Source: a virus
Virus record (IMG/VR): IMGVR_UViG_3300020428_000078
Location: 1-25,008 of that record
Length of the DNA: 25,008 nucleotides
Direction: 5' to 3' (one strand)
The notes under the pieces were generated by a model that made no database searches, was not told the origin of the DNA, and saw only the letters and a program-made list of their open reading frames with translations. The position numbers and the translations under genes were made by a program. This document shows positions 6,932-25,008 of this stretch, piece by piece (positions within the stretch are counted from its first letter, which is position 1; the number at the start of each line of letters is the position of its first letter).

Positions 6932-8848
6932 ATGGCAATCAAAAATGTAACAGAATTAGACTTTGATACTATCAAAACAAATCTAAAAGCACACATGCAG
7001 AATCAAGAAGAGTTTACAGATTATAACTTTGATGCATCTGGCTTGGCTGTTATTCTAGATTTGCTTGCATATAATACACATTATAATGCTGTTATGGCAC
7101 ATATGGTGGCCAATGAGGCGTTTATAGATTCTGCTGTAAAAAGAAATTCCGTTGTCTCTATCGGAAAGACTATGGGTTATACTCCCAGATCGGCTAGAAG
7201 TGCTAAAGCAACAATCGATCTAACAGTTACGCCTGCTACCACATACACTTCAAATACTTTAGTTATTGGAAGAAACACGCAATTTACTTCATCTGTGAAT
7301 GGAGTAGGTTATAGTTTTTATCCGAGTCAAGATTATACTGCTACTAAAATGACAAACTCAAGTGGTGTAGGGCAATTTGTATTTACTAGTATGGAGTTAA
7401 TAGAAGGCACGAGGACAGAAACTTCTGAAATAATAAGCACAAACAATACATCTGGTCCTATTATTTTACCGAATGAAAATGTCGATACTACTACTCTTAG
7501 AGCAAGAGTCAAAGAAAATTCAGCATCTTCATCAACAACTACCTATAATGTTTCTGATACTATTATCGCTGTTGATAATACATCTAAGGTATTTTATGTA
7601 GATGAAAGCGTATCAGGATTTTATCAAGTATCGTTTGGAGACGGTACACTAGGTGTTAAGTTAGTTGCAGATAATGTTGTAACTATTGATTATATTATAA
7701 GTTCTGGTCCTGTTGCTAATGGAGCATCTCGATTTAATATTCCCGTGCAAATAACAGGTGCAGGAGAAACAGTTGTTGGTAGTGTTACCGCTGAAGCCGC
7801 GGGCGGTGCATTTAGAGAAGACACAGACTCTATTAGATATAATGCACCAAGATTTAATGCTACTAAGAATCGAGCAATTACATTTACTGATTATGAGACA
7901 TTGATAAGATCAGCAAATCCAAATGTTAAGTCTGTTACCGTTTGGGGTGGAGAAGATAATGATCCGCCTATCTACGGAAAAGTATTCGTATCATTACAAC
8001 CAAAAACAGGTCTTGTTATAACAGAACAAGAAAAACAAAATTTACTTGATACGACAATAAAGCCAAGACAGCCGATCACGATGCTTACTGAGTTTGTTGA
8101 ACCAGAATTCACTTTCTTGGGATTAAATATATCTGCTACTTATGACAATAAGATAACCACTCTTTCTAGTGATGCTATAAAAGCGTTGATAATTGCTGAA
8201 GCGGAAAATTATTTCAATACAAATCTAAACATGTTGAAAAAGAATTTTTACTATTCGGTTCTTACAAAAAGATTGGGCGCACTTTCAGATTCTATTATCG
8301 GAATAAACATGGAACTTAGATTGCAGAAACGACTGGAAGTAGGCACAAATGTTGCAACTAGATATCAACCGAACTTTCACAATAAGATTATGCCAAATTC
8401 ATTGAGAACAAATCATTTTCAGGCTACTGTAAATAATGCATCATATAAAGTTAGTATTATTGATAAACCAGCGTCTACTGTTGTTGCGCCACAATATAGC
8501 GGAACAGGAACATTACAACTGAAAGATGTTTCTGCCGATACTATCATAAATGAAAATATAGGTACTATCGATTATGATACTGGAAAGTTAGATGTTACGA
8601 GTTTAATAATAAGTGAAATTACAGGAACAGCAAATACAATACTTCATTTCAATGTAACTCCACACGAAAGTTCAAAGAATGTTTCTTCTGACTTATTAAT
8701 AAGACAGCAAAGCGATACAACTTATGCAGTAACACAAAAAGCCGCTAGAAATAATGTAATAAATCTAGATCAAAATTCTGCCGATACTGCTAATAATATC
8801 ATGGCAGGAGTAAATGTAACAATGATTGCAAGGACACTTGACTCCTAA
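6932..8848 (+). CDS. 6: Baseplate wedge subunit gp6
   Basis: 638 residues, close to T4 gp6 (660 aa). gp6 dimers make the continuous inner ring of the baseplate and link neighbouring wedges. The N-terminal signature DYNFDASGLAVILDLLAYN (30-48) and the following HYNAVMAHMVANEAFIDSA helix are diagnostic. FREDTDSIRYNAPRFNATKN, then AITFTDYETLI in mid-protein, mark the baseplate_J-like domain shared with gp6/P2 gpJ. No obvious Shine-Dalgarno precedes the ATG (ggataaaataaatgg), so translation probably depends on coupling to PAAR, 5 bp upstream. The stop overlaps the next start (TAATG). Nothing looks truncated. Confidence 0.91.
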   Translation: MAIKNVTELDFDTIKTNLKAHMQNQEEFTDYNFDASGLAVILDLLAYNTHYNAVMAHMVANEAFIDSAVKRNSVVSIGKTMGYTPRSARSAKATIDLTVTPATTYTSNTLVIGRNTQFTSSVNGVGYSFYPSQDYTATKMTNSSGVGQFVFTSMELIEGTRTETSEIISTNNTSGPIILPNENVDTTTLRARVKENSASSSTTTYNVSDTIIAVDNTSKVFYVDESVSGFYQVSFGDGTLGVKLVADNVVTIDYIISSGPVANGASRFNIPVQITGAGETVVGSVTAEAAGGAFREDTDSIRYNAPRFNATKNRAITFTDYETLIRSANPNVKSVTVWGGEDNDPPIYGKVFVSLQPKTGLVITEQEKQNLLDTTIKPRQPITMLTEFVEPEFTFLGLNISATYDNKITTLSSDAIKALIIAEAENYFNTNLNMLKKNFYYSVLTKRLGALSDSIIGINMELRLQKRLEVGTNVATRYQPNFHNKIMPNSLRTNHFQATVNNASYKVSIIDKPASTVVAPQYSGTGTLQLKDVSADTIINENIGTIDYDTGKLDVTSLIISEITGTANTILHFNVTPHESSKNVSSDLLIRQQSDTTYAVTQKAARNNVINLDQNSADTANNIMAGVNVTMIARTLDS

Positions 8849-11800
8849 TGAGTACAGACGCACCAAGATTTAAGAGATTTATAAAGACTGTAAACATCAC
8901 TAGTGGTGGGTCTGGTTATTTCGGGAATGCTTCCGAATATATTCTTATACCTGCGCCTAATACCACAGATGTAAATGATACATCTTTACAAGCGACTGCT
9001 ACTGTAACATTTTTAAGTGGCGCAGTAAGTGCCATCACTATTACTGAACCGGGTGATGGTTACGCTAGTCCAGTAACTCCAGTCTTACAGGGTTCTCCAA
9101 GTGCTATTAGTAATATTAGTACAGTAGATCCAAACAGGGATGCTGGAACATATACTAGTCTGATGGCTGATAGTTCAGACTTTAATGGTTCTGGCGCAGT
9201 TGTAACATTTACTGTAGATAGCACTGGTGCGGTAACTGCTCAAAGCGTTCAATATGGAACTGGCCAAAATTATCGTGAAGGAGAAAAGATCACAATAAAT
9301 CCTATCACCTTCGGTGGTCAGGCTGATCATGATCCAGTTGTCTTTCAAGTAACGCATATTGGCGGTGGTTCTGGTGCAACATTCTCTACAGAAGTGGATT
9401 ATATTGCCAAAGCATCTGACTTCTATGTTGATAATAAATCATGGGCAGTAGAACATCAAATTCCAGAATGGATTGCAGAAGATAATCCACTATTCACTAA
9501 GTTTTTTGAATATTACTACGATTTTCTTGATCGTAACACATCAACAGGAATTGGTCCATCAAATATATTAGATACATTTTTAGATCGATATAATGTTGAT
9601 TTTAAAGATTCTGATGAAGTAACAACTACAAATTTTTTAGAAACTTTTTTAGCAGATTATGGAAAAGATTTTCCTCAGACTGCAACAATTAACAATGAAC
9701 TGCTTGTCAAAAATCTTCAAGAGTTTTATACAACAAAAGGATCATATAGAGCGATTGAGTTATTATTTAGGATGCTCTATAATGAGAAAGCAACGGTCAA
9801 ACCAACATCTGAGTTTGTATTACGGGCTTCGGATGGAGTGTGGGATGAAGAATATGTTGTAAGAGTGGTAGACAATAACGCTACATTTGAAAGATTTAAT
9901 ATTACGGAATACAATCCAGAAAGTTTTCAAGGACAGCAAGTAGATGTTCATTATAAGACATCAACTGGCTCTGTAACTTCTAATACGATAATTCAAACTA
10001 GTGTTGATCGTGTTAAGACTATTGCATACACTTCTCCACAGGTTTATGAATTAACTTTAAATCTTAAAAGAAATACAACAATCGAGGGTCCAGGTAGTTC
10101 TGATACTTATACGGCTGTTATTGGTGGTAAATTCGGCAATGTTTCTGATATTGGTGCCGCAGATGGTTCAAGAACTGCTGGCACTTACACTATCGGTACT
10201 AGCGATTACACTACTGATTCTGTTGCTGGTACAGGTGCCACATTTAGTATTGTTGTAAACGGAAGCGGTGCGGCTGCTGTAACTGTTACGGCAGTAGGAA
10301 CAAATTATGCACCAGGAGAAACAATTACTGTTGCTGATGCAAAGTTGGGAAGTGGTGGAGGAGCCGCTTTAACTTTTAAAGTTGGCACAATCACAGAAGG
10401 TTATATAAGATCAATAACTATTGATACTGCTGGTTTAGGATATGTTGCTAATCCTCCGTTGACTATACGAGAAGATGCCACTGATACGATTACAACACAA
10501 GCAGTCGCAAGTACTAGAATAACTTCTGGTGCCATCACTAGTGTAGTTATTGATACTGCTGGTTTAGGCTATAATAAAGTTCCGACAGTAACATCAAATA
10601 ATTTTCCAATTTTTTCTTTTGTCTCTTTAAGAGATGAAGACCCAGATGAACTTGCTTCTAGAAAAGCAACTATATTAAGAGTATTAACTGGCGCAAGTGT
10701 AAAAGCAAATTCGCATGCCACAGATGGTGGTTTTAGAGCGGGACAAGTATATCAGATAGACGAAGCCGCGGCAGCCTTTGCTGGTTATGCAATAGATTAT
10801 TTTGCTGAAGATTATACACTAACAGGTATTTCAAATAAAGGATTCTTGCGAATCAAAGCGATTGATGCAAATAAGAATCCTAAATCTTTTGATGTTATAT
10901 CAGTTGGTTCTGGTTATACCGCAGAACAGTTCGATATTAATATTACTTCTCCAAATGGAGAAACTTCAACTCTAACATGTACGACAGGACACAGTACAAC
11001 ATATCCTGGTGTGCATGAAACTAGTGCTGGCTTCTTATCTGATATCAATAGAGTACAAGATAATGATCGATATCAGAGTTATGCGTATGATATTGAAACT
11101 AGCAGGTCGAAAAAAGAATGGGGAGATTTTGTAAAACGAGCCGCACACCCTGCTGGTATGAAAATGGGAAGTGCCTTATTGATAGAACAGGAAGTTGACT
11201 TTGCTACCGCGTTCTCTGTAACTACCGATGTTACACTCTTCACAGTTATACCTGATATCGAAGAAGTATTGGTACAAGACGCAGTTGCTTTAGATATTGA
11301 GATCGTATTAACAGTAGAAGCGTTCTCAGTAAGCGATGCCGCTCCAACATTTGAGGTAACAACTACCGCTTCTGACTCAGCGATAGCCAGTGATGAAGGT
11401 GCTTTATACGCAACGGATTACTTCTTAACTCCGGGTGATTACGCAGTAGATGACATGCCAATTCTTGATTTCCAGAAATTCTTAACAGAATACTCAACTG
11501 GTGAATACGCATTAGATTACTTCTTACACGATGGTGGTAGATATACACTTCTTATCGATGATGATGCGTTAGAAGACAATGCAGGCGAAGTGTATGTAGT
11601 AGATGATGCTATAAACATATTCGATATTGGCACCACTCTTGCGGATAGTGTTGAGATAGACGATACAACAATTATTGTATCTCTTGTATACTTTAGAACT
11701 TCCACTGACTCTGTTGATACCGCAGATTCTATTAATCTATTAGATATAGGAATTGGTGCAACAGATCAACCAGTAACCGCAGATGTAATTAACTTATTCG

Positions 11801-12255
11801 ATGTAGAATTGGTTGCAACTGATGGTGCAGAAACCGCAGATGTAATTAACTTATTCGATGTAACTGTAGTGTACACCGATTCTTCAAATGTTCAAGATGC
11901 ACCAGAACTTGAAATAGAAATAATATCTGTAGATACAAACGATGTACAAGATGTTGCAGTATTAGAAGTAGAATTCCCATTAGCAGACGGAGCAGAAACT
12001 GCCGATACATTATCAATAGAACCGCAACTAGTAGGAACAGATACAGTAAATACACAAGATGCTGTAAACAATTTTGATGTTACTACGGTTGCAGAAGATG
12101 GACCACAGACTGGTGAATTAGTTGTCAGGAGTCCAGGTATAAATAGTACAGATAGTGCCGATATTGCTGATTCTGGATCTGCATCTAGTCAGTCATATGC
12201 GGCAGGAGATTATTTTTTAGAAGATTATGTTGCTGATACGGTGGTTAACTTCTAA
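8848..12255 (+). CDS. Large gp7-position baseplate protein with acidic C-terminal repeats
   Basis: 1135 residues, between gp6 and gp8 as gp7 is in T4 (1032 aa). The recognised core is EHQIPEWIAEDNPLFTKFFE (202-221), then LLVKNLQEFYTTKGSYRAIE (285-304) with LLFRMLYNEKATVKP. A second block, YQSYAYDIETSRSKKEWGDF (742-761) then VKRAAHPAGM, is common in large baseplate proteins of marine T4-like phages. Gly-rich GSGY/GLGY units occur around residues 20, 70, 485, 530, 573 and 688. Residues 781-1135 contain about 76 Asp/Glu but only four Lys/Arg, and include 19-residue repeats. A DYFL motif recurs at 857, 890 and 1121, with DYFA at 650. Start overlaps the gp6 stop (TAATG). A wedge-organising role is inferred from position; direct similarity to T4 gp7 is not evident by eye. 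Confidence 0.65.
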   Translation: MSTDAPRFKRFIKTVNITSGGSGYFGNASEYILIPAPNTTDVNDTSLQATATVTFLSGAVSAITITEPGDGYASPVTPVLQGSPSAISNISTVDPNRDAGTYTSLMADSSDFNGSGAVVTFTVDSTGAVTAQSVQYGTGQNYREGEKITINPITFGGQADHDPVVFQVTHIGGGSGATFSTEVDYIAKASDFYVDNKSWAVEHQIPEWIAEDNPLFTKFFEYYYDFLDRNTSTGIGPSNILDTFLDRYNVDFKDSDEVTTTNFLETFLADYGKDFPQTATINNELLVKNLQEFYTTKGSYRAIELLFRMLYNEKATVKPTSEFVLRASDGVWDEEYVVRVVDNNATFERFNITEYNPESFQGQQVDVHYKTSTGSVTSNTIIQTSVDRVKTIAYTSPQVYELTLNLKRNTTIEGPGSSDTYTAVIGGKFGNVSDIGAADGSRTAGTYTIGTSDYTTDSVAGTGATFSIVVNGSGAAAVTVTAVGTNYAPGETITVADAKLGSGGGAALTFKVGTITEGYIRSITIDTAGLGYVANPPLTIREDATDTITTQAVASTRITSGAITSVVIDTAGLGYNKVPTVTSNNFPIFSFVSLRDEDPDELASRKATILRVLTGASVKANSHATDGGFRAGQVYQIDEAAAAFAGYAIDYFAEDYTLTGISNKGFLRIKAIDANKNPKSFDVISVGSGYTAEQFDINITSPNGETSTLTCTTGHSTTYPGVHETSAGFLSDINRVQDNDRYQSYAYDIETSRSKKEWGDFVKRAAHPAGMKMGSALLIEQEVDFATAFSVTTDVTLFTVIPDIEEVLVQDAVALDIEIVLTVEAFSVSDAAPTFEVTTTASDSAIASDEGALYATDYFLTPGDYAVDDMPILDFQKFLTEYSTGEYALDYFLHDGGRYTLLIDDDALEDNAGEVYVVDDAINIFDIGTTLADSVEIDDTTIIVSLVYFRTSTDSVDTADSINLLDIGIGATDQPVTADVINLFDVELVATDGAETADVINLFDVTVVYTDSSNVQDAPELEIEIISVDTNDVQDVAVLEVEFPLADGAETADTLSIEPQLVGTDTVNTQDAVNNFDVTTVAEDGPQTGELVVRSPGINSTDSADIADSGSASSQSYAAGDYFLEDYVADTVVNF
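11704..12093 (+). repeat. Tandem 17-19-residue acidic repeats in the gp7-position protein
   Basis: Residues 953-1082 split into seven consecutive units of 19,19,19,19,18,17,19 residues. The consensus is close to TDxxxTADxINLFDVxxxA. Units 2 and 3 share an exact 31-bp DNA identity (11775-11805 and 11832-11862), offset by 57 bp, indicating recent tandem duplication. Degenerate relatives extend upstream to about residue 805 and down to about 1108. The regular alternation suggests stacked β-turns, perhaps with bound cations; that is inference. Confidence 0.85.
12138..12145 (+). promoter_or_regulatory. Possible intragenic late promoter box
   Basis: An exact TATAAATA followed by G, inside the last 120 bp of the gp7-position gene (codons for Gly-Ile-Asn-Ser). 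The start would be near 12151, giving a leader of about 165 nt to the gene at 12316. A better placed box lies at 12263, so this one could be chance. Confidence 0.35.
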
Positions 12256-12783: not shown

Positions 12784-14388
12784 GTGGCGTTATTACTTAG
12801 GGATCAAGCCCGAGTTCAGCAAGCAAGGTCATTTTATAGAGATGTCTATAATACAAATGACTACTTTTATATGTTTGTCTCTCGGGCGACACCTTGGGCT
12901 GATGAAACCAGCCCTGATACCCCAGTGGACAATAGGACCCAGATGGCTGATGTCAGACGGCAAATGCTCTTTGCAAAAAGAGTACAGGGTTCTAATGTCG
13001 CTCTTTTAGCAAAGAGAATTAACTGGGTATCTGGAACAGTCTATGATACCTATGATGATAACTATTCATCTACATATAAGTCCAATTCTGGTGCTTCAAA
13101 TCTTGTAGATGCAAATTTCTATGTATTAACAGATAATTTTAATGTATATAAATGCATAGACAATAATAGCAATGCTCAAAGCACAGTAAAGCCTACCACG
13201 ACTGGAACAGATATTGTAACTCTAAGTGACGGTTACAAATGGAAATTTATGCTTACAGTAGGAGCCGCAGACAGAACGCTGTTTCTCACAGACAACTTTA
13301 TTCCTATAAGAAAAGTTTCTGGATCAGGACAACCAGCATTTGATGTTAATGGAGAATTAGATTCGCTATCTATTACTTCTGGAGGTTCTGGATATTCTAG
13401 TGCGCCTACTGTAGTTATAAGTGGAGATGGTACAGGTGCCGCGGCAACTGCTACTATTTCAGGTGGGGCTGTTAATACATTGACCATCACATCTGTTGGT
13501 TCTGGCTATTCATTTGCATATGTTGAATTTAGTGGCGGTAGTCCTTCTACAGCCGCAACTGCAACTGCTAGTCTAGGTTCAACTGAAGCCGCATCTGCTC
13601 AACAATCTGTAGAGTCTACAGCGATTTCTGGAAGCATAGACAAGATTATTGTGACAGCACAAGGAGCAGACTATATTGCAGGAGATGCTCTTGTTGCGAT
13701 TAGTGGCGATGGTACTGGTGCTACTGCATCACCAACGATAAACTCTGCTGGAAATATCACGGGCGTAACTATAAGTGCTCCTGGAACTAATTATACATTC
13801 GCTGATATTTCCATCACACAAACTACTGGCACGGGCGCAAGTGCAACATTTAGAGCGATTATAAGTCCAGAGAACGGACATGGTGCTAATGCACAGAAAG
13901 AACTTTTCGCTAAAAACATAGGAATGACCGTATCATTTGAGAATACGAATGAAGATTTAATTTTAGGTAATGAATTCAGACAAGTAGGTGTATATAAAAA
14001 TCCTTATCAGTTTGCTAGTAGTAGTGCATTGTTTACTACAGGTATTGGTACACCCTGTCATGTTATAGGAGTTTCTAATCCAACTCAATATAATTTAGAT
14101 GACATAGTAACAACTACTGAAGGAGGAAAATTCAGAGTAATACAAAAGATAGACTCTAATGCTGATGGTACTATCGATAAAGTATATTTACAACAAATAA
14201 TTGGTGGTATATCAGCATCGTCAACTATTAAAAATGTTACAACAGCCGTTGAAGGTTTGACTATAAATAGTGCAACGAATCCAGAAATTGATCCACATAG
14301 TGGCGATTTGTTGTATGTCGATAATAGAAGACCTGTCGTTAGAGACAGCGATCAAACCGAAACAATTAAAGTTGTATTCAAATTTTAG
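12784..14388 (+). CDS. 8: Baseplate wedge subunit gp8 with an inserted repeat module
   Basis: 534 residues against 334 in T4. gp8 forms dimers on the outer wedge and contacts gp7, gp10 and gp6. Recognised family blocks are YFYMFVSRATPWADETSPDT (27-46), MLFAKRV, WVSGTVYDTYDDNY (81-94), FYVLTDNFNVYKCIDNN (112-128), TLSDGYKWKFMLTV (146-159), FRQVGVYKNPYQF (398-410) and the end LLYVDNRRPVVRDSDQTE (509-526). Residues about 190-358 are an insertion of Gly-Ser-Gly-Tyr units, which accounts for the extra length. The start is GTG; MALLLRDQARVQQA fits the family start, and AAGGAG (12771-12776) lies 7 nt upstream within a hairpin. The first 200 bp are markedly richer in GC (60-base lines up to about 55%) than the rest of the gene. 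Confidence 0.88.
   Translation: MALLLRDQARVQQARSFYRDVYNTNDYFYMFVSRATPWADETSPDTPVDNRTQMADVRRQMLFAKRVQGSNVALLAKRINWVSGTVYDTYDDNYSSTYKSNSGASNLVDANFYVLTDNFNVYKCIDNNSNAQSTVKPTTTGTDIVTLSDGYKWKFMLTVGAADRTLFLTDNFIPIRKVSGSGQPAFDVNGELDSLSITSGGSGYSSAPTVVISGDGTGAAATATISGGAVNTLTITSVGSGYSFAYVEFSGGSPSTAATATASLGSTEAASAQQSVESTAISGSIDKIIVTAQGADYIAGDALVAISGDGTGATASPTINSAGNITGVTISAPGTNYTFADISITQTTGTGASATFRAIISPENGHGANAQKELFAKNIGMTVSFENTNEDLILGNEFRQVGVYKNPYQFASSSALFTTGIGTPCHVIGVSNPTQYNLDDIVTTTEGGKFRVIQKIDSNADGTIDKVYLQQIIGGISASSTIKNVTTAVEGLTINSATNPEIDPHSGDLLYVDNRRPVVRDSDQTETIKVVFKF
13351..13857 (+). repeat. Gly-Ser-Gly-Tyr repeat module inserted in gp8
   Basis: Codes for residues 190-358 of the gp8 protein. Units have the form ITSGGSGYSSAPTVVISGDG, then an Ala/Thr-rich strand, and recur with GSGYSFAYVEFSGG, GADYIAGDALVAISGDG and GTNYTFADISITQ. 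SGDGTGA occurs twice (213-219 and 307-313). Related units occur in the gp7-position protein and near the C-terminus of the 2414-residue protein (residues about 2184-2300). The conserved gp8 sequence resumes on both sides, so this is an insertion. Confidence 0.8.
14262..14269 (+). promoter_or_regulatory. Possible intragenic late promoter for the DUF4815 gene
   Basis: An exact TATAAATA followed by G, inside the last 130 bp of gp8 (codons for Thr-Ile-Asn-Ser). The start would be near 14275, giving a leader of about 124 nt to the ATG at 14399. No other late box lies between the gp8 start and the large gene. Confidence 0.45.
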
Positions 14389-21860: not shown

Positions 21861-22706
21861 ATGGCTACAATAACACTTAGATCAACAAAGGGCAGTCCTC
21901 TTACTAATACCGAAGTCGATAATAACTTCACCAATCTTAATAACGACAAATATGAGAGTGGTGATAATATTGCCGCAGGTACCCTAACGGCTACTGGCAA
22001 TTTGACTTTAGGTGTTGCCGCGACTGTATCAGCGGCTGGCTCCGTCCAGGGAGATGCAACTGCAATCACAAAAACTTACAATATCATATCGACAGGAAGT
22101 GCTAATCAGGGAATAAAATTACCTACAGCGGCCGCCGGTCTGGTTATCAATGTATATAACATAACGGGTAATACGATTAAAGTTTATCCAAACACTGGTG
22201 GCACAATAGATGGCGGATCAGCAAATGCTTCTGTCGATCTTGTTACCGCAAATGGTGTAGAATATGTTGGTACTAGTTCAACTGCTTGGAGAGCGGTAGG
22301 TTCTGCTGGTAATAATGTTCAAGACTTCACAGTTAATGGAACTGCTTCATTATTAGGAGACTTGAAATACGGTATTACTGCCGCAGTATCATCTGCTGGT
22401 TCTGCACAGGGTGATGCTACAGCATTAACAGAAACGATAAACATTATCACCACAGTTGGTGGTGCGGCAGAAGGTGTTATTCTTCCGACCGCAGCCGCAG
22501 GATTACATGTAGTTGTTGCAAATACGACTGCTACTAATTGTAAATTATATCCAGCAAGTTCAGATACTATTAATGGTGGAAGTGCCAACGCGGCTGTCAC
22601 ATTACCCGCATATACTACTTGGACATTAACCTGTAAAGATGCAACTGATTGGGTGAAACACCGCGCACTGGCAGTTTATAACTCTAGTGGAACTTTAGTA
22701 AACTAA
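21861..22706 (+). CDS. Tail fibre-like protein with a duplicated domain
   Basis: 281 residues. The N-terminus ITLRSTKGSPLTNTEVDNNF (4-23), then TNLNNDK, is the common attachment motif of many phage tail fibre and appendage proteins. Two similar domains follow, residues 51-144 and 171-264. Each runs AVSxAGSxQGDATAxT, a strand block, LPTAAAGL, an N-x-T stretch, YP, a T-I-x-GGSAN turn and a Trp near the end. The domains are diverged, so the duplication is old. The protein is short for a host-binding fibre and may be a tip or connector. Only one Cys lies in the first 250 residues; no signal peptide or chaperone-like cleavage domain was seen. A late box lies 81 bp upstream and a strong ribosome site precedes the ATG. 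Confidence 0.72.
   Translation: MATITLRSTKGSPLTNTEVDNNFTNLNNDKYESGDNIAAGTLTATGNLTLGVAATVSAAGSVQGDATAITKTYNIISTGSANQGIKLPTAAAGLVINVYNITGNTIKVYPNTGGTIDGGSANASVDLVTANGVEYVGTSSTAWRAVGSAGNNVQDFTVNGTASLLGDLKYGITAAVSSAGSAQGDATALTETINIITTVGGAAEGVILPTAAAGLHVVVANTTATNCKLYPASSDTINGGSANAAVTLPAYTTWTLTCKDATDWVKHRALAVYNSSGTLVN
22011..22652 (+). repeat. Two-copy domain duplication in the fibre-like gene
   Basis: Copy A is 22011-22292 (residues 51-144) and copy B is 22371-22652 (171-264), 360 bp apart. Shared blocks are AGSxQGDATA, LPTAAAGL and IxGGSANA. The copies differ clearly at DNA level, so they are not a recent duplication. Confidence 0.8.
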
Positions 22707-22721
22707 TAAGGGGATTATAAC

Positions 22722-23819
22722 ATGGCAGGTCCATTAACTCTCAAAGCGAGTGCGTTTCCCGCTACTGCTACCACAATGGAAGGCGTAGAAGAACTTACAG
22801 ACGCAGAGATAAAAGATCACATTGCCTATATTATTACAAAAGATTTTGCTGATAATACAGATGGCACCGGGGCTGCGGAATTGATATCAACAACTGGATC
22901 TTTAGCATCTGGTTACACCTCTATAGGTACTTTTACAAACAGAGAAAGAAACGAAGCAGTTGGTACGCATGTAGCCGGCGGAGCAACTACTAATACTACC
23001 TATACTATGGGACAGAAAACAGACGCCGCGAGTGTTTCTACATCAACGAGACCTGTAAGATGGAATGGCTCAAGTGTGGAAGAAGCGTCTGATGCAGAAA
23101 TTGATTCTGAAATTCTAGATAAAGTAATCAACGCTATGGTTACAGAAGATGCAAACACTATTGGTCAGTATCATCTTAATAGTGGTACTCCTAGTGGAGG
23201 CACATGGACTACAAGATACACTATCACCGAAACTCAAGTAGACGGAACAGATGTAGCATATAAAATTTGGCAGAAAACTGCCGCTACTACAGTACCATCA
23301 TCGGATACAAATCGACCTCTTAAAGTAGATACTGATGGCGATTTGCTAGAAATGACTGATGCAGAAATCAGAGATATGACTGATAGATTTAGAAATAGAA
23401 TTCTGAGTGAGGGTCCTGGTAAATATCTATTGAACGCTGGCGCACCAAGTGCAACGGGTACATGGGTTCAGATGGGTATTACAATGACTGATCAGTTAAA
23501 AGATATAACTGATGTATCGTACTCAGGATCATACACTGGTAACTTTTCTGGTACATATTCACAAAACTTTGCTGGTGCTTATGCTGGTTCTTACACAGGA
23601 TCATATACTGGATATTATAATAGATTCTTTGGTGGATATCTGAACGGAGCATACGCTGGCACATATTCAGGATCATATACTGGATATTACACAGGTTACT
23701 ATCAGGGTAACTTTACTGGTACATACTCACAATCTTTCACTGGAAGTTATACTGGTGCTACTGTACAATCTTCTAGTAGTACTCAAGAGACTAAGCAATT
23801 ATTCATAAGGACTGCTTAA
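22722..23819 (+). CDS. Fibre-like virion protein with [Y/F]-x-G-x repeats
   Basis: 365 residues in two parts. Residues 1-262 contain three diverged modules of about 95 residues marked by LTDAEIKDH (25), ASDAEIDSE (122) and MTDAEIRDM (211). Each module has an acidic helix, then LNxGxPSxxGTW and WQKT-type blocks where complete. Residues 267-346 are exactly 20 tetrapeptides of the pattern [Y/F]-x-G-x (for example YSGSYTGNFSGT), with slips at YSQN, YNRF, LNGA and YSQS. The tail ends TQETKQLFIRTA. I have seen similar YxGx repeats in marine phage structural proteins but know of no proven role; a trimeric glycine-rich fibre shaft with stacked aromatics is my inference. The start has AAGGGG about 11 nt upstream (taataaggggattataacatg). 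No late box lies in front, so it is probably co-transcribed with the previous gene. Confidence 0.72.
   Translation: MAGPLTLKASAFPATATTMEGVEELTDAEIKDHIAYIITKDFADNTDGTGAAELISTTGSLASGYTSIGTFTNRERNEAVGTHVAGGATTNTTYTMGQKTDAASVSTSTRPVRWNGSSVEEASDAEIDSEILDKVINAMVTEDANTIGQYHLNSGTPSGGTWTTRYTITETQVDGTDVAYKIWQKTAATTVPSSDTNRPLKVDTDGDLLEMTDAEIRDMTDRFRNRILSEGPGKYLLNAGAPSATGTWVQMGITMTDQLKDITDVSYSGSYTGNFSGTYSQNFAGAYAGSYTGSYTGYYNRFFGGYLNGAYAGTYSGSYTGYYTGYYQGNFTGTYSQSFTGSYTGATVQSSSSTQETKQLFIRTA
23520..23759 (+). repeat. 20 tandem 12-bp (tetrapeptide) repeats
   Basis: Codes for residues 267-346, 20 units of [Y/F]-x-G-x without a break in register. An exact 22-bp identity occurs at 23596-23617 and 23668-23689, offset by 72 bp (six units). 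The series YTGN FSGT YSQN (from 271) and YQGN FTGT YSQS (from 327) is offset by 14 units, implying segmental duplication by slippage or recombination. Confidence 0.93.
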
Positions 23820-23883: not shown

Positions 23884-24333
23884 ATGGAAGACCTTCCCAA
23901 ATATCGAAACCCAATCTGGATTGATAAGTCTATTCGTTCTCTCAGATGTCAAATCTGGGTAGAAACTTCCGACGGTGCTGACTATGTTGATTGTACTGTA
24001 ACCGCTGGACCAGCAGAAGAAGGTTATGTCAATGAAGACTATGATGCTATCATGGAAACTATTGGCGAAGAGATGGTAGATGAAAATACTGCTGTTTGGG
24101 CAGAAGAAGAACAGAAGAGAAAAGATCGTCATCTACAAGAGCATGAAATTCACAAAAGCAGAATAAAGCAAGAAACTTTATTCAATATGAAATTAGAAGC
24201 ACTTGCTATCCCCGAAATAAAAGAATCTAAAAATAAAGAGATTAAAAAGAAAATTCGGAAAGCAAAAACTTTGATAGAAGTGCAAGCGTATTCTACTATT
24301 TTATTGTTTGATGAATTACCAAATGTCAAGTAG
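23884..24333 (+). CDS. Unrecognised charged protein upstream of the glycosyltransferase
   Basis: 149 residues, family not recognised with confidence. Residues 1-45 look like a small β domain (NPIWIDKSIRSLRCQIWVET, then YVDCTVTAG). Residues 50-75 are acidic (DYDAIMETIGEEMVDEN). Residues 75-135 are dense in Lys, Glu and Arg and probably helical (EEEQKRKDRHLQEHEIHKSR, then KESKNKEIKKKIRKAKTL). The end is hydrophobic (AYSTILLFDEL). The order β domain, acidic segment, helix vaguely recalls tail fibre assembly proteins, but no diagnostic motif was found. It is first in a unit with its own sigma70-like promoter and a strong ribosome site, and its last 11 nt overlap the glycosyltransferase start, so the two are probably made together. 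Confidence 0.7.
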   Translation: MEDLPKYRNPIWIDKSIRSLRCQIWVETSDGADYVDCTVTAGPAEEGYVNEDYDAIMETIGEEMVDENTAVWAEEEQKRKDRHLQEHEIHKSRIKQETLFNMKLEALAIPEIKESKNKEIKKKIRKAKTLIEVQAYSTILLFDELPNVK

Positions 24334-25008
24334 TACAGACAATGGTTACATCTATGTTGCTTCACACAGAAAAGAATATTATTACGCCGCTAAAGAATCA
24401 GCCCAGTCTCTTTTAGATTTTTATCCAGAAGCAAAGATAACTCTCTTTACTCAAGAAGAGTGGGTGGAAGATGAAGATGATGAAATTTTTGATAATGTTA
24501 TAACTGGCATACCCACAAATGTAAGAGCAAAATTGTGGGCATTATCACAAACTCCTTATGATTTAACTCTTTATCTTGATTGTGATACGCACATTCAACA
24601 TGAAGATATAAGCAATGTGTTTGATTTTATAGGAGATAATGATATTATCTTCACTAGAAACAGACCATATAATGCCAAAATAACTAAACTCAATGATCAA
24701 GATGAAATGGTCTATCATTGTGGAATTTTTCTTTACAGAAAAAAAGAAATGGTTTGTATGTTGTTCGATCAGTGGTATGAGAATTATCTCAAACAGATTG
24801 AACCAGATTGGGATCCTAGTCCTTATCCAGAAGCAGTTAAGCCATGGGATACTTTTACTATGTGGTATCTACTAAATAAAACAGTCTACGGAAGATCAGT
24901 GAAGATAGGAGATTTTCCATCACCAGACGCTAGATGGAATTTTGTCTACGGACATTACGAAGAAGAGTTGCAAGGAACAGAGATTGTCATTTTACATTAT
25001 CTTTTAAA
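24323..25008 (+). CDS. Glycosyltransferase (GT-A fold, GT8-like), C-terminus cut by window edge
   Basis: 228 codons from the ATG at 24323 with no stop, so the gene continues past the window. Seen: GYIYVASHRKEYYYAAKESA (7-26), a first β-strand and helix of a Rossmann-like nucleotide-sugar domain; ITLFTQ (38-43); VRAKLWALSQTPYDLTLYLD (66-85), leading into DCD at 85-87, the DxD metal and nucleotide-sugar motif; MVYHCGIFLYRKKE (128-141); and PWDTFTMWYLL (173-183), resembling the acceptor or D-x-x motif of such enzymes. HYLL near the edge may be the conserved C-terminal His. The spacing resembles GT8/glycogenin-type retaining enzymes, but the family is not certain. Donor and acceptor are unknown: phage DNA, virion protein or host surface are all possible. 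It overlaps the previous gene by 11 nt. Confidence 0.78.
   Translation, partial: MSSSTDNGYIYVASHRKEYYYAAKESAQSLLDFYPEAKITLFTQEEWVEDEDDEIFDNVITGIPTNVRAKLWALSQTPYDLTLYLDCDTHIQHEDISNVFDFIGDNDIIFTRNRPYNAKITKLNDQDEMVYHCGIFLYRKKEMVCMLFDQWYENYLKQIEPDWDPSPYPEAVKPWDTFTMWYLLNKTVYGRSVKIGDFPSPDARWNFVYGHYEEELQGTEIVILHYLL

Follow-up and report, generated by a model that had tools for sequence, protein, structure and literature searches.

The C-terminal third of a 365-residue fibre protein encoded in the window (the whole 25,008-nucleotide stretch of viral DNA analysed here) most probably folds as an up-and-down beta needle resembling that of T4 gp37, in which the chain leaves a base as an outgoing strand, reaches a distal tip and returns antiparallel, probably within a six-stranded trimer. 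It is very likely that the chain runs to the tip and then exactly the same distance back, with a bulky side chain opposite a small one. The product had been called a fibre protein in a preliminary description, and the setting of its gene agrees with a protein of fibre type, coded beside baseplate genes: upstream lie T4-like tail and baseplate genes, including that for a gp8-like baseplate wedge protein at 12784-14388, together with other phage tail families. Pfam, PHROGs and PDB sequence searches with the fibre protein returned nothing useful. Searches of IMG/VR recovered many relatives. Their N-terminal domain is conserved, as is the C-terminal strand, which terminates in L[WF][LI]RTA, and the [YF]xGx array between the two varies greatly in length. 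The features of the gene and its immediate surroundings are collected in Table 1.

Table 1. Features of the fibre gene and adjoining sequence, in window coordinates.
Feature	Position	Strand	Basis
Fibre protein gene, 365 aa	22722..23819	+	ORF; about 100 distinct relatives share the layout
N-terminal base domain, aa 1-247; three similar modules (DAEI ... YxL..PxGGTW)	22722..23462	+	Conserved in alignments A1 and A2; pLDDT mostly 80-96
Outgoing-strand base, aa 248-266 (WVQMG...)	23463..23519	+	Begins predicted strand 248-298; pLDDT ~94
Outgoing array half, aa 267-298	23520..23615	+	[YF]xGx lattice; mirror-paired to aa 313-345
Central tip motif YNRFFGGYLNGAY, aa 299-311, centre Y306	23616..23654	+	Exact midpoint (window and 39 non-redundant members); predicted turn 299-310
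Returning array half, aa 312-345	23655..23756	+	Mirror pairs Y267:G345 ... F275:Q337, Q281:F331
C-terminal strand ATVQSSSSTQETKQLFIRTA, aa 346-365, predicted to run back to the base domain	23757..23816	+	Conserved family end (L..RTA); end of predicted strand 311-363, pLDDT 94-95
22-bp direct repeat, copy 1	23596..23617	+	
22-bp direct repeat, copy 2	23668..23689	+	
149-aa gene downstream of the fibre gene; position conserved; candidate fibre chaperone	23884..24333	+	123 related loci; directly downstream in the loci inspected

The array consists of 20 tetrads (aa 267-346; 240 bp at 23520-23759) and, as had been described, keeps a single frame and a single 12-bp register over its whole length. 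The further statement that all 20 units read [YF]xGx holds strictly for 16 of them, YSQN, YNRF, LNGA and YSQS being off pattern; Tyr or Phe occupies position 1 in 19 of the 20 tetrads and Gly position 3 in 17. The 80 residues are made up of Y18 G18 S11 T11 F6 A6 N5 Q3 R1 L1, with His, Pro and acidic residues all absent. The previously noted match of 22 bp at a distance of 72 bp is exact and exceeds the expectation from synonymous-codon shuffles, in which the longest repeat averages 13.9 and 22 bp is reached at P ~0.01; it is a local event, because it is absent from the nearest relative (L001, 93% identical), where the longest repeat is 13. Two features had been overlooked, namely that the central off-pattern units YNRF and LNGA are part of a conserved motif at the array midpoint, and that the array is made of two mirror-matched halves. 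The view of a uniform stack of 20 units thus gives way to one of two antiparallel halves round a central tip, while the idea of an aromatic/glycine shaft unlike collagen or a beta-helix is supported. A collagen-like fibre was rejected as a candidate, since it needs Gly at every third residue and the array has a period of 4 (variants 6, 8 and 10).

The conserved non-repeat motif NRFFGGYLNGAY stands precisely midway along the array, reading NRFFGGYLNG in the window and AADYDGYAGTSY, TLFYSGFAGGTNY and other variants in relatives. With the start of the array taken as the first [YF]xG unit and its end as the G of GxT[ILV], both defined independently of the central motif, the halves measure 39 and 39 residues in the window and 19/19, 35/35, 55/55 and so on up to 281/281 elsewhere. 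Among the 46 non-redundant members in which the motif is matched only once, it is residue-exact in the middle in 39, whose half lengths span 19-281 residues, a fifteen-fold range, and it is off by one in 3 more. When the midpoint is read blind, almost every compact member yields the motif, and for large members the position tends to be in or near a non-repeat segment. The correlation between half lengths is r 0.57; it is reduced by three matches in which the motif was misplaced, all in proteins whose tip domain is large. In very large relatives carrying YxRx and STRT repeats the ungapped mirror score has no preferred register, and the least repetitive segment still tends towards a near-middle position.

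Repeat number had been expected to vary, and it does differ widely among relatives; what the expectation did not include is that both halves change together. Within clusters sharing at least 60% N-terminal identity the half length changed at least 21 times, and the halves stay equal within one residue, although shared ancestry means that neither these length counts nor the pairing counts given below are independent tests. In three pairs of relatives (L044/L041, L045/L149 and L038/L122) each half carries one insertion, and the two lie about equally far from the tip, the insertion points being approximate because repeat alignment is ambiguous by a few units; in L044/L041 the inserts are 22 and 22 residues, with a K hexad in the outgoing half and an S hexad in the returning half. 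It could be argued that the halves are equal merely through one tandem duplication and that no structural pairing exists, a view to which the likeness of the halves in direct order and the fact that the 22-bp direct repeat of the window spans the tip lend some support. Such an origin is extremely unlikely to be the whole account, as the halves remain equal through the length changes just described, the mirror-order K/S pairs of one relative (L042) are perfect (7/7) when those in direct order are not, and the occurrence of Phe opposite Gln is not predicted by it. How two halves of one gene, altered by separate events, remain equal over 19-281 residues is an evolutionary question that these proteins raise.

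The pairing of the halves can be expressed as a mirror rule, under which residue i stands opposite residue (start + end - i). The inner pairs so defined are Y:G, G:Y, F:G, K:S, S:K, F:Q, F:R and F:N, and at the mirror register 1345 of 1449 inner pairs (92.8%) in 39 non-redundant proteins join a big residue to a small one. When the units of the returning half were permuted (1000 trials) the count fell to 825-1006, or 57-69%; sliding the register by 2 left 6-10% and sliding it by 4 left 79-84%. The Lys of the six-residue units is almost always opposite Ser (K:S 65, K:K 0, S:S 0, K:A 2), against permutation means of ~3.7 for K:S and ~3.4 for K:K or S:S, and Phe is found opposite Q, R, N, S or T 73 times, where the null has a mean of 19.5 and a maximum of 31. 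A polar residue replaces the opposite Gly in 75 of 192 cases for Phe versus 16 of 1134 for Tyr (odds ratio 45, non-Gly). Both Gln that replace a lattice Gly in the window sit opposite Phe (F275:Q337 and Q281:F331), and covariation is also seen between close relatives as double changes of K:S to S:K.

These figures bear directly on the possibility of a parallel trimeric shaft, in which three chains would pass once from base to tip as a uniform rod of stacked repeats and the middle motif would be merely a kink. Parallel trimers are common among phage fibre shafts, and the order of hexads is often alike in both halves (direct order K:K 27, S:S 26), so that the arrangement has some appeal; it is nevertheless very unlikely here, since pairing in parallel register brings big and small residues together in no more than 60% of cases, and since it leaves the exactly central motif, the mirror K:S and F:Q pairing and the paired length changes without a reason. 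It would also have the C-terminal strand finish far from the base, whereas AlphaFold2, at high confidence, has that strand lying next to the base strand (aa 248-266). For the antiparallel arrangement it seems likely that the sequence obeys a readable strand-facing code (Y:G, F:Q/N/R/S and K:S) and that its length is determined by insertions that match between the halves, making this a natural length-programmable antiparallel rod whose halves evolve together. A facing code as simple as this may help in the design of rods of chosen length.

Spacing between units is even in 1227 of 1239 cases, the period being 4 with variants of 6, 8 and 10, and even spacing is what an extended strand would show if every Y and G lay on the same face. 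A helical glycine-zipper segment (GxxxG) might be proposed from the Pfam Gly-zipper matches (PF13441) of 15 of 45 relatives, the best with E 1.2e-19. That proposal has almost no chance of being right: the window protein is without a PF13441 match, hexads alter the helical phase yet preserve strand parity, strands appear in both AlphaFold2 runs, and the matches reflect the 4-residue Gly period.

The single-chain AlphaFold2 model obtained with 45 sequences has a mean pLDDT of 83 and contains one continuous antiparallel hairpin, with strands at 248-298 and 311-363 and a turn at 299-310. Values of pLDDT are mostly 80-96 in the base domain and the base of the hairpin, 53-58 in the array and below 50 in the turn. 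The disordered tail that the preliminary description had named as the alternative is not what this model gives, the predicted form being a continuous beta hairpin, though the array itself is modelled with no more than moderate confidence. An earlier run with 10 sequences produced a poor model, yet one with strands; as sole support it was rejected as too weak. Foldseek comparison with the PDB and BFVD gave no significant fold match.

A structural precedent is provided by T4 gp37 D11 (residues 882-1009), with stems at 882-931 and 960-1009, a tip at 932-959, an iron-His core and the inter-subunit contacts G921-F970 and G964-H929 (PMC6957217). When the mirror test was applied to gp37 as a control, the sum 1893 was best among 130 register/parity choices, in agreement with the reported stems and contacts, and placed together H885:G1008, G895:H998, G913:H980, H915:G978, G921:F972, G927:H966 and H929:G964. 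D11 and the window family have in common an up-and-down chain with equal stems (50 residues in gp37) round a central tip, a big residue (H or F in gp37) opposite Gly of the other strand, and a C-terminal strand that comes back to the base domain. They differ in that the window array is without His, and hence without HxH iron layers, that Tyr/Phe is set against Gly in the core of the family and K:S layers occur in relatives, that half lengths range over 19-281 residues, and that the N-terminal domain is a different one. No gp37 or collar-domain homology of the fibre protein was detected as a PDB profile match at E <= 5 or as a Pfam collar match. The family is not classed as a gp37 member because there is no sequence relation and there are no His layers, and by analogy it works like gp37 D11.

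In the proposed architecture the N-terminal domain would serve as the base, from which the chain would exit as a long extended strand (aa 248-298), turn at the distal tip (aa 299-311) and return antiparallel to the base (aa 312-363). Y/F and G would share one face of each strand, which we infer to be the inner face; with halves that are exactly equal and antiparallel, each inner aromatic would therefore stand opposite a Gly on the returning strand (Y267:G345, G269:Y343 and onwards), bulky and small residues interdigitating. If T4 gp37 is a guide, the rod is probably built of three chains, giving six strands round an aromatic/glycine core, and each layer of that core would take three residues of either kind. 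The tip at mid-sequence would be the distal end, and receptor binding is expected there. A fibre in which the hairpin is correct and the assembly is a monomer or dimer is unlikely. The evidence bears on chain topology and not on oligomer state, and the hairpin is already formed in the monomer model; aromatics would, however, be exposed on a lone two-stranded ribbon more than 100 residues long, and T4 gp37, which is the nearest working analogue, forms a trimer whose subunits face one another by the same rule (PMC6957217).

No description of the family was found in the open-access papers searched. The present analysis supplies a likely structure and tip position for an uncharacterised aquatic phage fibre family that sequence and fold searches leave unplaced, and the mirror rule allows the probable host-binding tip to be located, at the midpoint, from sequence alone.

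The bacterial genome contigs scanned contained no relative, and the sole named phage record among the relatives is phage C48C1, whose hypothetical protein WJE88074.1 (Kyanoviridae, 3348 aa) resembles the window protein in an N-terminal region 27% identical, in [YF]xGx arrays and in a matching C-terminal end. Unlike the window protein it is about ten times longer, has mixed YxGx, YxRx and STRT repeats and several inserted non-repeat domains, and gives a simple ungapped mirror score without a preferred register. The same protein (L016:612-10655) has a ~75-residue internal duplication (KTRHRSYLYYSTDTSTNQQFF... at ~2007 and ~2082). Synechococcus phage S-RIM2 YP_007675557.1, with VTGN/LTGN repeats, is likewise a large structural protein with Gly-position tetrads; it differs in having Val/Leu in place of Tyr/Phe, an unrelated N-terminal domain and no mirror pairing signal, and its tetrads and N-terminus ruled out the S-RIM2 matches as relatives. 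Some phages (L052, L058, L066, L068, L078, L085, L092 and L094) carry two neighbouring fibre genes of the array family whose arrays differ in type, the tip being compact in one and the other having a large non-repeat middle.

The 149-residue product encoded downstream of the fibre gene, without a family match, is put forward as a candidate fibre chaperone. The second gene after the fibre gene (window 24308-25008; L001:4603-5301) is conserved in 168 related loci and weakly resembles family 8 glycosyltransferases (PF01501, E 0.017, for the L028 homologue). The next gene, past the window edge (L001:5571-6191, L094:7609-8283), looks, by eye, 2-oxoglutarate/Fe oxygenase-like (motif like GFMGWHxNWxxxGYNILxSY), with no Pfam match. 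A glycosyltransferase and an oxygenase adjoining a Tyr/Thr/Ser-rich fibre could point to fibre modification. Upstream of the fibre gene, window 21861-22706 encodes a 281-residue protein with two similar halves (ATVSAAGSVQGDATAITKT... and AAVSSAGSAQGDATALTET...), present in 149 related loci, and a 57-bp tandem repeat of 2.5 copies at window 11719-11862, inside the ORF at 8848-12255, encodes repeats of the TADVINLFDV type.
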